A DNA stretch of 64,000 bases, taken from contig NZ_MASN01000030.1 in NCBI RefSeq assembly GCF_001861355.1, positions 310,001 through 374,000 of the forward strand, in the 5' to 3' direction. The notes below the pieces were generated by a model that saw nothing but the letters and a program-made list of their open reading frames with translations, was not told the DNA's origin and searched no databases. The position numbers were made by a program, and so were the translations under genes. The stretch comes from Natrialba sp. SSL1. GTDB lineage: Archaea > Halobacteriota > Halobacteria > Halobacteriales > Natrialbaceae. Below are positions 59,911-63,117 of the stretch, in pieces; the stretch's first letter is position 1, and the number at the start of each line of letters is the position of its first letter.

Positions 59911-60402
59911 TCACTCTTCGGCGAGTTCGACGTCGTCACCCGGTTCCATCCCAGTCTGGTTCGCGTAGCCCCGTGGTACTTCGAGCACCCACTCACCATG
60001 GCCGGTGTACTCGAGTGCCTCGCCATCCTCGCCCGGTTCGGGGGCGCGGGCGTGTTCGATCGACGTGATTTCGCGATCAGCATCGATGAAGATGATGTCG
60101 ATGTCGAAGTCCATGTCGCGCATGACGTAGGTTCGTTCGCCTTCGCTTGCATGGATGAACAGCATTCCCTCGCCGTCCTCGAGGGTGTCGTGATCGCTCA
60201 GACCGGTGTAGCGCTCCATGGGCGTGTCCGCGAGTTCGACCTCGATGGTCGCTTTGGGGTCGCCGCTCTCGTCGAGCACGTGGAGGGTGTTGGTGTCGTC
60301 CGCCCACGGGGCAGCGACGAGTCCGGTCTGGAGGGCTAGCGCGGCGATGAGCAGGAGTGCAGCGACGGCAAGCAGGCTTTTCCACACCCGCTCAAGAACC
60401 AT
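59911..60402 (-). CDS. DUF192 membrane-anchored protein
   Basis: 163 residues. N-terminal signal-anchor SLLAVAALLLIAALALQTGL. The DUF192 domain reads ADTPMERYTGLSDHDTLEDG, MLFIHASEGERTYVMRDMDF, DIDIIFIDADREITSIEHAR, and WVLEVPRGYANQTGMEPGDD. Exported small beta protein of unknown role, often next to metal- or cell-surface genes. It lies 75 bases from the ABC exporter start, on the same strand. Confidence 0.9.
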   Translation of the reverse strand: MVLERVWKSLLAVAALLLIAALALQTGLVAAPWADDTNTLHVLDESGDPKATIEVELADTPMERYTGLSDHDTLEDGEGMLFIHASEGERTYVMRDMDFDIDIIFIDADREITSIEHARAPEPGEDGEALEYTGHGEWVLEVPRGYANQTGMEPGDDVELAEE

Positions 60403-60462
60403 ACCGACGATGCGACGCGAGAAAGTAAAGGTTATTCGGACGGGGAGTCTTGTTCCGGATGC

Positions 60463-60536
60463 GGGCTCGTGGTCTAGCTGGTTATGACGCGGCCTTTACA
60501 AGGCCGAGGTCGGTGGTTCGAACCCGCCCGAGCCCA
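60463..60536 (+). tRNA. tRNA-Val (anticodon UAC)
   Basis: 74 bases. The acceptor stem GGGCTCG/CGAGCCC closes on discriminator A at 60536. Anticodon arm CGGCC-TTTACAA-GGCCG gives anticodon TAC at 60497-60499 (reads GUA and related Val codons). T arm GGTGG-TTCGAAC-CCGCC. No intron. A TATA-like AAAGGTTATT at 60427-60436, about 27 bases upstream, is the likely promoter. A 9-base-stem hairpin follows 4 bases after the gene. Confidence 0.95.
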
Positions 60537-60833
60537 CTATTGCTGGCGCGAACACATTCGTGAGCGCCAGCACTGTGACGCGAGTGGCGGGTTCGAAGTA
60601 GACCGAGGTTCTGCGCCCTCGGCGCAGGTTCTCGGGCGTGGTTCGAACCCACCCGAACTCTACTCCATTGAGACTCACCCAGCAATAGCTCACAGCACGC
60701 TGGGTAACAGAAAGAAACGAAATTGCAGCCAGTAGTTACTCGAGTACACACGCCACGAACGACGAGAAAACGGTACGTCACGGGAGGTCAACGGGGGCTG
60801 GTAGGGTCCAGGACGCTGATCAATCGCGAGTAG
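60537..60833. repeat. tRNA-Val trailer: hairpins and partial copy of the tRNA 3' end
   Basis: No gene seen in 297 bases. Hairpin 1: TGCTGGCGC (60541-60549) / GCGCCAGCA (60564-60572) with a 14-base loop. Hairpin 2: CTGCGCC (60611-60617) / GGCGCAG (60621-60627). Then GTGGTTCGAACCC plus CCCGA at 60638-60656 copies the T arm and acceptor of tRNA-Val (60514-60532) with one mismatch at this core. Confidence 0.75.
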
Positions 60834-61280
60834 TCACTGCTTGAGCCGCGCGACGTTCTCTCTGATCTGCCTGAAGAAGCCCTCGCCGGCGTCCCGTTCG
60901 AGCGCCGTGTGGAGCGTCGAGTTCTCCGGTTCGTCTTTAACGACGATGCGAAGGTATGGCTCGAGTTGCTCGAAGTTGTCTGCGAGGACGACGGTGTGGT
61001 TGTCCTCGTCGTGGTCGACGACGCCAGCGTCCGCCAGTTTCGGGACGTGACACTGGACGGACGAGACGTAGACGCTCTTGTATTCGTTCTTTGCGACCTC
61101 CTCGGGCGGGACGTCGTGTTCCCAGCCAGCGACTTGCTCTGCGAGTGTCGAGAGTTCGATCGGACCGTCCTGTCCCCGAAGGGCATACAGGAGGTACCGA
61201 CGCCGACGGTTGGCCAGTAACTCGAGGATAGTATCCGCCGAGAGTTCGTAGTCTGATTGGCTCGAGGTAAGTGCCCCCAT
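60834..61280 (-). CDS. DUF7344-like winged-helix protein
   Basis: 148 residues. ADTILELLANRRRRYLLYAL, then IELSTLAEQVAGWEHDVPPE, VYVSSVQCHVPKLADAGVVD, and HDEDNHTVVLADNFEQLEPY form one winged helix with the H(V/L)PKLxxAGxVD motif common to haloarchaeal DUF7344 proteins. A helical tail follows. Likely DNA-binding regulator. Compare the duplicated version at 33995-34654. It sits between the two tRNA genes on the opposite strand. Confidence 0.78.
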   Translation of the reverse strand: MGALTSSQSDYELSADTILELLANRRRRYLLYALRGQDGPIELSTLAEQVAGWEHDVPPEEVAKNEYKSVYVSSVQCHVPKLADAGVVDHDEDNHTVVLADNFEQLEPYLRIVVKDEPENSTLHTALERDAGEGFFRQIRENVARLKQ

Positions 61281-61471
61281 AACACGATATTACCGTCGAG
61301 TGCGGAAAAACGTGTCTTGAATATCTGTATATCCAACAGACGGCCGTTACACTGAGATTTCTCGAGGCGTAGCCTGGCCATTACGGGTGGTTATGTGTCC
61401 TACAGTTGGTTGTTGTGTGAGAGGAACACTGTCAGGAAAAGCACGTAACGGCCGGATGCAATTCGAAATCC

Positions 61472-61480
61472 TTTTTTATA
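61472..61480 (+). promoter_or_regulatory. TATA box of tRNA-Phe
   Basis: TTTTTTATA about 25-33 bases upstream of the tRNA-Phe gene, preceded by a purine-rich CGAAA (61464-61468) that may act as BRE. Confidence 0.6.
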
Positions 61481-61504
61481 CCATGGCCTGAACTACGAGT
61501 GCGA

Positions 61505-61578
61505 GCCGCCTTAGCTCAGACTGGGAGAGCACTCGACTGAAGATCGAGCTGTCCCCGGTTCAAATCCGGGAGGCGGCA
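61505..61578 (+). tRNA. tRNA-Phe (anticodon GAA)
   Basis: 74 bases. Acceptor stem GCCGCCT/AGGCGGC with discriminator A at 61578. Anticodon arm CTCGA-CTGAAGA-TCGAG gives anticodon GAA. T arm CCCGG-TTCAAAT-CCGGG. No intron. A near copy of its 3' end occurs twice downstream, at 61694-61712 and 61676+1000 (62676-62694), suggesting that this tRNA has served as an integration target. Confidence 0.95.
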
Positions 61579-61917
61579 TACTTTTGCGGCGAGCAACACC
61601 GCGAGCCGCAAGTATGCAATCCGAGCGGATTTGAGCCAGACGAGTCGCAGCCCGCGCAACGAGCGGAGTGAGTGAGCAGGACCGTCTCGGCGAGGTTCAA
61701 ATCCGGGAGGCGCATACCTCTTTTGACTCTTCGGGTTTTCTCGCTCACTACACGCGCTGCGGGAACTTCTTAGTCACAAAAACCAACTGCAACTACCTCG
61801 ACGCTCCCGTCAGTCGCGTTGAGTGAAACCGCGGCTCACTTCGTCCGCCGTGATGCGCTGACGCCCCTGAACGGTATTAGCAAAAAGCTTATTTCCCACC
61901 CACATTTTCATTTTTTA
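61579..61917. repeat. tRNA-Phe trailer with hairpin and second T-arm copy
   Basis: No gene seen in 339 bases. A hairpin pairs the bases from 61578-61590 (ATACTTTTGCGGC) with 61605-61615 (GCCGCAAGTAT). A second possible stem is AATCCG (61618-61623) / CGGATT. The 19-base sequence GGTTCAAATCCGGGAGGCG from the tRNA (61557-61575) recurs exactly at 61694-61712. The upstream promoter of the lipoprotein gene (AAAAAGCTTATT, 61882-61893) closes the interval. Confidence 0.7.
61882..61893 (+). promoter_or_regulatory. TATA-like promoter of the lipoprotein gene
   Basis: AAAAAGCTTATT, 25-36 bases before the ATG at 61918, in an AT-rich pocket. Confidence 0.45.
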
Positions 61918-62661
61918 ATGAAAAGGCGCGCCTTCATAACGGCGTTTGCAGGTTCGGCCCCACTGCTTTCTGCTGGCTGTCTCTCAAACACGTCATCGAA
62001 CTCGTCACAATCTCAGGCGTGCGATGCTGTTGAGATTACCCGAGCGTCTGTATCCGTGGAACCCCTGTGTGGTGGCGCCACAACGAGGACAGGGAGTGTA
62101 GAGGGCCAAGCAGGGGACTGCAACACGGAACTACTCCTCGAAATCGTCGACGAGGACGAAATCATCGAGGAAGTTACCGTCGAGACCAACAAGGGTGGGT
62201 GGTCGGTCGGTTTCGGCGAGGGACCAGAACAAGTACGGACGGTTCCCAGTCAAGGCGACAAACGTGTACGGATTCGTGGCCCGGGTGAGGAGATTCTTGC
62301 CTCGGAGCAACTTACCGTTTCGCACTATCTGGACTCACCAAACCTGGCTATTTGGGGGCCTGAGTTCGAGCCTGAGACAGTATCAGTCGGCGAGGACGTC
62401 ACGGTGGAATTCAGCATTGCGACGTACGGTGCTGAGACGTCATTCACTGCCGCACTCCTGGTCAACGGCGAAGCGGTAGAAACTCGTAACGGAGTGGTTG
62501 ACGGCAGACCAGACTGTCAACATGCCAGCGGACCGGAGTACGAGTTCAGTTACACCTTCGAGGAACCGGGTGAGCACGAACTGGCTAGCAGAATCACCGT
62601 CGACAGTTCCTCGAAGGGGGGTGACACTAATTCGATTGGAACGGTGACCGTGACCCAATGA
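61918..62661 (+). CDS. Tat/Sec lipoprotein with Ig-like fold, in tRNA-Phe island
   Basis: 247 residues from the ATG at 61918 (MKRRAFITAFAGSAPLLSAG then C), a Tat-like signal plus lipobox SAGC. Ser/Asn-rich linker, then beta-rich parts: VEITRASVSVEPLCGGATTR, CNTELLLEIVDEDEIIEEVT, and a C-terminal Ig-like half (FEPETVSVGEDVTVEFSIAT, YEFSYTFEEPGEHELASRIT). It has less acidic and more Ser/Cys-rich composition than its neighbours. It lies between two copies of the tRNA-Phe 3' end, so it may have come in with an integrated element. Function unknown. Confidence 0.78.
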   Translation: MKRRAFITAFAGSAPLLSAGCLSNTSSNSSQSQACDAVEITRASVSVEPLCGGATTRTGSVEGQAGDCNTELLLEIVDEDEIIEEVTVETNKGGWSVGFGEGPEQVRTVPSQGDKRVRIRGPGEEILASEQLTVSHYLDSPNLAIWGPEFEPETVSVGEDVTVEFSIATYGAETSFTAALLVNGEAVETRNGVVDGRPDCQHASGPEYEFSYTFEEPGEHELASRITVDSSSKGGDTNSIGTVTVTQ

Positions 62662-62928
62662 ACCAGGGCACAAGAGGTTCAAATTCGGGAGGCGATACAC
62701 GAAATCGATGCGGCGGAGGGGGGTCTGACGGGTGGCATGGAAGTAGACGTGGACCTGCCGACGGAGCCTGGCAAGTTTGTCGTCCGAACTGCGATCGGCG
62801 AGACGGCCCGCGAGAGCAATATTGCAGATAAACACGGTGACGGATGTATCAGCGTGCAGGTGTGGGTCGGGCCTGACGAGGTGCCATCGATTCTGACGCG
62901 GCATGACGGAACCGCGTGTCTCGAGTAG
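62662..62928 (+). pseudogene. 3' remnant of an exported protein gene
   Basis: An open frame without a start codon (preceded by a stop at 62659) gives VQIREAIHEIDAAEGGLTGG, then MEVDVDLPTEPGKFVVRTA and CISVQVWVGPDEVPSILTR, ending at a TAG at 62926-62928. The beta pattern and acidic residues look like the tail of a secreted protein. An internal ATG at 62737 could still yield 63 residues. The 5' end coincides with the third tRNA-Phe end copy (62676-62694), which suggests that recombination there removed the front of the gene. Confidence 0.45.
62676..62694 (+). repeat. third copy of the tRNA-Phe 3' end (att-like)
   Basis: GGTTCAAATTCGGGAGGCG differs from the tRNA-Phe end (61557-61575) by one base and lies 982 bases after the exact copy at 61694. 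The two copies bracket the lipoprotein gene. Confidence 0.65.
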
Positions 62929-63117
62929 CGACCGGTCCGAGGTGATGGCTGCTCGAGCCAGCAAGTGGGGCGAATAAAGCCACAATCTTGGAGACCAGGA
63001 GCTCCGATACCAATCCACACATGCTAACCTCGCAGTGAAACTCCGATTTTCGGACGTATCAGCACCCGTGCTGGTAGGTTCGGGATTAATGGATGACTCG
63101 CGCGTACGTATCTCCTA

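Follow-up and report, generated by a model that had tools for sequence, protein, structure and literature searches.

Hairpin units and gene cassettes bordered by cognate tRNA tails behind haloarchaeal tRNA genes

tRNA genes are classic docking sites of mobile DNA, and the sequence that lies between a tRNA gene and its cargo is usually dismissed as scars. We analyzed the DNA behind the tRNA-Phe gene of Natrialba sp. SSL1 in a 64-kb window (G000:C30:310001-374000) of this 4.58-Mb haloarchaeal draft genome, referred to as G000 in the rest of the text. The tRNA gene is followed by a gene-less unit of two hairpins and then by a cassette carrying a lipoprotein gene, both of which end in a copy of the tRNA-Phe 3' end (the tail). 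Such units constitute a defined, structured family that turns over and occupies between a third and over half of the tRNA genes in two congeners. We interpret the tRNA-Phe locus, with moderate confidence, as a small array of tRNA-anchored mobile cassettes that would cross over in the T-loop and, being non-autonomous, would be moved in trans by tyrosine recombinases. Its parts, in window coordinates, are the following.

61505..61578, + strand: tRNA-Phe (GAA), the insertion target (ARAGORN, Rfam)
61557-61575, + strand: tail copy 1, the 3' end of tRNA-Phe itself, within the tRNA call
61579..61715, + strand: gene-less hairpin unit of 137 bp, of a class found behind many tRNAs
61582..61612, + strand: hairpin A of this unit, with a T run at its start and tandem G-A mismatches (predicted fold)
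61626..61637, - strand: inverted T-arm (T'), pairing partner of tail copy 2 at its T-loop and T-stem (repeat search, predicted fold)
61638..61693, + strand: core of hairpin B (P2), AGACGAG...CGTCTCGGCGA, with a covarying stem
61694..61712, + strand: tail copy 2 (exact), which closes the unit on the right and is the left border of the lipoprotein cassette
61713..62694, + strand: lipoprotein cassette, between tail copies 2 and 3
61918..62661, + strand: lipoprotein gene, 247 aa, lipobox LSAGC
62676..62694, + strand: tail copy 3, one mismatch, truncated and fused to a resident gene
62695..62928, + strand: 3' part left of a second lipoprotein gene; G003 has the whole gene behind tRNA-Phe and its unit
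60463..60537, + strand: tRNA-Val (TAC), anchor of a second unit, 1 kb upstream of tRNA-Phe (ARAGORN, Rfam)
60538..60662, + strand: hairpin unit of tRNA-Val, with hairpin A, an inverted T-arm at 60586-60597, hairpin B and a cognate tail at about 60641-60662

The original prediction, made from the letters of the window, had placed three copies of the tRNA-Phe tail at this locus, and all three positions hold. Beyond the tRNA, the tail GGTTCAAATCCGGGAGGCG has an exact copy at 61694-61712 and a copy with a single mismatch at 62676-62694, and the repeats are not due to chance because no other match of at least 15/19 occurs on either strand of the 64-kb window. The lipoprotein gene predicted between copies 2 and 3 is present (ORF 61918-62661), with no Pfam family above the cut-off, and the gene said to be broken at its 5' end, where the last copy lies, is indeed a remnant, of which G003 has the intact homologue; the reading frame of the truncated ORF (62737-62928) stays open upstream as far as tail copy 3. 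Copy 2 is no scar of an ordinary element; it closes a gene-less two-hairpin unit belonging to an order-wide family. Two parts had been overlooked, namely the inverted T-arm at 61626-61637 and the tRNA-Val gene with the same layout; the order of parts is identical behind both tRNAs, as is the distance of 57 nt from the T-arm to its inverted copy. Hairpin A of the tRNA-Phe unit is also present in G002, G022 and G024. When positions 60400-63100 were scanned with Rfam, tRNA alone reached the gathering score and no intron family matched, ruling out a known RNA family for the units.

All units follow one plan. From the tRNA end they comprise a T run with hairpin A, often with a tandem G-A mismatch (GCGAACAA..TTCGTGAGC), then T', which is an inverted copy of the T-loop and first T-stem bases, then the P2 stem-loop core and finally the cognate tail, such that T' and the tail itself form the arms of hairpin B. 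A unit is about 95-170 bp long, contains no gene and commonly stands in tandem with others, with up to four at Leu(TAG) in G002 and an XYXYX array at tRNA-Phe in G022. Alignment of 68 tail copies to their own tRNAs gave random identity before the T-loop, 0.66-0.91 within the loop, 0.96-1.00 in the 12 bases after it, 0.88 at the last tRNA base and at most 0.60 past the tRNA end. The duplicated segment therefore runs from the T-loop to the tRNA end and excludes the 5' strand of the T-stem. T' matches the local tRNA over the T-loop and about four stem bases and is random farther on. A one-base insertion recurs in the copied T-loop (GTTCACAATC; for example at Lys, Thr and Arg in G000) and bulges hairpin B on its tail side.

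The core of hairpin B behaves differently from its arms: several P2 classes are shared by unrelated tRNAs, as illustrated by CAGGGA-stem-GACCGTGG at Arg, Asp, Met, Thr, Ser and Val. Cores shared by unrelated tRNAs rule out local tandem duplication as the sole origin of the units. We assessed pairing in 62 distinct units retrieved with a pattern that left the stem free, scoring each position separately since the variable hairpin tops made a global MAFFT fold uninformative. Stem pairs 1-4 were Watson-Crick in 94-97% of units compared to 33-68% after shuffling; the first pair alone reached 97% compared to 33%, and was C-G in 26 units, G-C in 20, A-T in 8 and T-A in 6. The stem thus covaries, indicating a structure under selection, either as RNA or as single-stranded DNA.

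To count tail copies, we took the tRNA loci of G000 and its congener G002 from ARAGORN calls, extracted them piecewise and required the tRNA-specific last 13 bases at 11/13 or better, 30-300 nt downstream. A cognate copy was found at no fewer than 26 of the 44 tRNAs in G002 and at no fewer than 16 of the 48 in G000, both being lower bounds because the detection tolerates few indels; looser inspection of G000 raised the number to about 20 tRNAs. Tails of other tRNAs reached the same score in 0.7% of trials, and this control, together with the restriction of the tRNA-Phe tail to three places in 64 kb, rules out chance repeats. A search of the tRNA-Phe region against 41 genomes of the order returned many matches to the part behind the tRNA, and nearly all the matches examined in the other genomes followed directly on a different tRNA gene and terminated in the tail of that tRNA. 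An exact pattern scan of a collection of 84,980 species gave 79 matches in 76 stretches, all but three of which belong to Halobacteria. For 67 of the 79 matches, a co-directional tRNA precedes at a distance of no more than 355 nt, and in 61 the core is cognate at 10/13 or better, several others being cognate with an indel. Two matches on megaplasmids have tRNA-Val and tRNA-Glu tails, with a predicted tRNA adjoining the Val one only. Small samples from six other families of the order had a copy at 0/6, 0/5, 1/6, 4/6, 2/5 and 2/5 tRNAs, while none of the 32 tRNAs sampled outside Halobacteriales had one, ruling out for this sample a unit common to all archaea. We found no description of these hairpin units in the open-access literature, subscription papers being mostly outside the search.

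The genomes represent one per species, hence turnover was followed between species of a genus. At tRNA-Ala(GGC), G000 runs straight into the flank, whereas in G002 a 130-bp unit intervenes and the shared flank (292 nt, 88%) resumes behind it, from the first base after the tRNA end in the tail copy. The tRNA-Ala(GGC) locus of G000 is a perfect empty site for the 130-bp unit, of which a near-identical copy stands in G000 at tRNA-Ala(CGC), behind a 13-kb element. At tRNA-Asn, G002 has an extra 154-bp unit before a cassette common to both genomes (flank 97%), and at Thr(CGT) it has one additional unit. Comparison of these orthologous loci therefore indicates insertion and loss, not drift.

The tRNA-Phe locus itself carries different cargo across relatives, in agreement with the predicted recombination at tRNA 3' ends and turnover of cargo: it holds proviruses with integrases, gene cassettes or units only. 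G004 has two units and G022 has five. In G001, a 3.3-kb element with an integrase remnant precedes the lipoprotein cassette, behind which stands the unit that is second in G004. G005 harbors a 16.9-kb provirus-like element that encodes an integrase of 342 aa, sharing 46% identity with the SNJ2 integrase, and a 913-aa protein resembling, by eye, a tape-measure protein. In G006, units are accompanied by a cassette with two SHOCT-type proteins; these two small membrane-protein-like genes, with SHOCT or DUF1707-like domains, lie between tail copies 0.1-1.5 kb behind tRNA-Phe.

The window cassette aligns with that of G001 tail to tail (61686-62698, 86.5% over 1012 nt), and it is missing in G004, G001 and G004 rejoining exactly at the tail. 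The idea that the repeats mark insertion borders thus stands for the cassette, which is tail-bounded in both G000 and G001, but not for copy 3 as a clean border. Homology of the right side of the window locus to G003 begins at 62692, inside tail copy 3 and in the middle of a lipoprotein gene. Since copy 3 is joined mid-gene to a lipoprotein gene that is intact in G003, it is a deletion joint, and a deletion behind the cassette removed the front of the resident lipoprotein gene. The proposed swapping of lipoprotein genes at this locus is accordingly right in its outcome, a tail-bounded cassette present in one relative and missing in another, but not in its reading of copy 3. It is further qualified by homologues of the cassette lipoprotein found away from tRNA-Phe. 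Close homologues occur in only a handful of 293 genomes, and two of them sit without Phe tails, ruling out the lipoprotein as an obligate cargo of tRNA-Phe.

Tail-less inserts were also seen. In G001, 3.2-3.3 kb behind tRNA-Phe, an insert consisting of hairpins only stands at the T-loop of a provirus attachment site, and the Y units of G022 are tail-less hairpin-only inserts behind a remnant of the tRNA-Phe anticodon arm; both look as if hairpins insert on their own. In G017 (G017:C1:1776000-1790000), a tRNA-Phe unit without its tRNA starts in the middle of the T-loop and adjoins a 419-aa integrase-like gene. It was probably displaced from the tRNA-Phe at G017:C1:1834177 by an element of about 51 kb.

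The data show precise insertion at the tRNA 3' end, cognate tails, arrays, turnover between congeners, gene cassettes with the same borders and a covarying hairpin. We propose that the crossover lies in the T-loop, which would leave the tRNA intact and mark the far side of each cassette by a copy of the segment from the T-loop to the 3' end. Most cassettes are gene-less hairpin units and some carry genes, such as the lipoprotein of the window. Proviruses and other integrase-bearing elements use the same tRNA tails as the units, and the non-autonomous units could be moved in trans, perhaps as circles, by tyrosine recombinases like those of such proviruses. Folding of hairpin B may yield a recombination site, because a single strand in which T' pairs with the tail would present duplex T-loop and T-stem DNA identical to the tRNA gene, as attC does in integrons.

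Several observations weigh against this mechanism. No unit encodes a recombinase and no autonomous version was found. The attP of SNJ2-type viruses contains the 13-14-bp tRNA end and lacks such hairpins. The units were not found in IMG/VR or in phage records, the pattern matches in IMG/VR being unrelated chance hits of 33-45% GC, and their being the attP of known haloviruses is thereby ruled out. Finally, hairpin B cores are shared between different tRNAs, with tail and T' matching the tRNA in each case. A simple attP swap fails to produce this, since a tRNA would be broken on receiving a foreign tail. This leaves two options, namely rewriting of the arms or a tail that arises by target-site duplication.

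The latter possibility leads to an alternative that we consider unlikely, in which hairpin DNA is introduced at the tRNA end by some transposase- or Cas1/casposase-like integrase, the tail of about 16-21 bp being duplicated during repair like the repeat in CRISPR adaptation. The duplicated tail fits the long target-site duplication of casposon- or CRISPR-like insertion, every tail would be cognate while the cores are shared by many tRNAs, and the empty sites fit equally well. However, duplication does not yield the T' inside the insert, which is also cognate over the T-loop and first T-stem bases, and tyrosine-integrase proviruses use the same segment.

It is rather improbable that the units are remnants of tRNA-targeted proviruses whose ends were fused by internal deletion and amplified by homologous recombination between tails. 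Full integrase elements do occur at the same tails, and one unit type of G022 retains a piece of the tRNA-Phe anticodon arm, like a provirus attachment site. Yet the uniform size and two-hairpin plan extend behind nearly all isotypes across the order, the stems covary strongly, and the provirus ends that were examined do not have these hairpins.

A role as RNA, either in termination or 3' processing or with T' masking the extra tail against misfolding with the tRNA, appears quite improbable. Although the T run and hairpin A lie directly behind the tRNA and T' pairs with the tail copy, about 40-65% of tRNAs have no detected unit and orthologous tRNAs differ within the genus. The hairpin tips are GNA triloops in 43 of 62 units and GNRA tetraloops in 6 of 62. 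GNA triloops are a stable form in DNA, hence their excess hints at DNA, weakly as the genome background is biased the same way.

Gene cassettes are exemplified by the tRNA-Asn cassette of G000 and G002, which encodes a 153-aa protein that is a clear member of the PDDEXK_5 family of homing endonucleases (PF11645, E 2.5e-29, 102.5 bits compared to a cut-off of 26.1; C30:396068-396526 in G000). Two overlapping samples of 30 loci, one from the family of the window genome and one from the whole order, placed its homologues directly behind tRNA-Asn, tRNA-Asp or tRNA-Pro and co-directional in nearly all of the 60 loci. As exceptions, one gene of the family sample stood just before another tRNA and a second at the start of a contig, and one gene of the order sample had no nearby tRNA. 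The genes often stand next to or between two tRNA-Asp copies. The family includes I-Ssp6803I, a homing endonuclease of a tRNA group I intron; unlike the nuclease of such an intron, the cassette gene stands behind the tRNA between tail copies and not within an intron of its target. Its family suggests a homing role for the cassette protein. A predicted intron of about 33 nt interrupts the tRNA-Asn beside the gene in some genomes and is not predicted in others. Spread of the cassettes by homing, in which this PD-(D/E)XK nuclease would cut unoccupied tRNA genes and repair would copy the cassette with the units as passengers, is very improbable despite the position of the gene and the family membership of I-Ssp6803I, as the nuclease is found neither at tRNA-Phe nor at most unit-bearing tRNAs, and in fewer than half of the genomes searched (115/243).

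Comparison with known systems sets the units apart from each of them. Like elements with an SNJ2-type integrase (pleolipovirus SNJ2 and its relatives), whose attP core is the last 13-14 tRNA bases, the units are bordered by a direct repeat of the tRNA 3' end (T-stem 3' strand and acceptor). Those elements are multi-kb and carry a tyrosine integrase, whereas the units are about 95-170 bp without a gene, and the attP regions of SNJ2, Halfgib1 and Humcor2 have neither hairpin A nor hairpin B; membership of the units among SNJ2-type elements thus fails on gene content and hairpins. Miniature inverted-repeat transposable elements and other palindromic elements of haloarchaea (Haloquadratum, PMC3119063) are likewise short, non-autonomous and palindromic, but the units are distinguished by their restriction to tRNA 3' ends, where the cognate tail is duplicated. 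The tRNA-end repeats of genomic islands formed by tandem accretion are likewise direct repeats that bracket cargo; what recurs in the present case, by contrast, is a two-hairpin unit of defined build, occupying from a third to over half of tRNAs.

The units look like a tRNA-anchored counterpart of bacterial gene-cassette arrays. Integron arrays and clusters of attC sites lacking integron integrases (CALINs), including those of archaeal integrons (PMC9668308), also consist of tandem cassettes, whose bordering sites are imperfect hairpins with tops that vary. Their cassettes either have a gene or are empty, and in both systems the structure of the sites is conserved more than their sequence. They differ in that the units have dozens of tRNA anchors instead of one attI, with hairpin arms matching the local tRNA. 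The integron integrase (TIGR02249, IntI-specific domain) had no match above the cut-off in 31 genomes, so that integron membership of the units fails on the integrase. The inner edges GAAC/GTTC of the units are no more than reminiscent of the attC motifs RYYYAAC/GTTRRRY. We tentatively suggest that Halobacteria may possess a distributed integron-like cassette system, in which tRNA T-loops would serve as entry sites and folded single-stranded hairpins bearing the cognate T-arm as exchange sites, the cassettes being mostly gene-less, accumulating and turning over at between a third and over half of tRNA genes and sometimes carrying lipoproteins or a tRNA-homing nuclease. The units would explain how small genes such as those of lipoproteins are shuffled without a nearby integrase, and tools for site-specific insertion in archaea could be derived from this natural source. 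Whether a folded hairpin recombines with a tRNA T-loop is a question that the precise empty sites between congeners make testable.

Larger elements adjoin units in both congeners. The 13-kb element in tRNA-Ala(CGC) of G000 (G000:C43:1-15412) has a 337-aa integrase-like gene at its far end and is followed by the hairpin unit and then by a repeat of its own left end. In G002, a 2.9-kb element with a 369-aa integrase at tRNA-Gly(TCC) has the same hairpin unit on both flanks.
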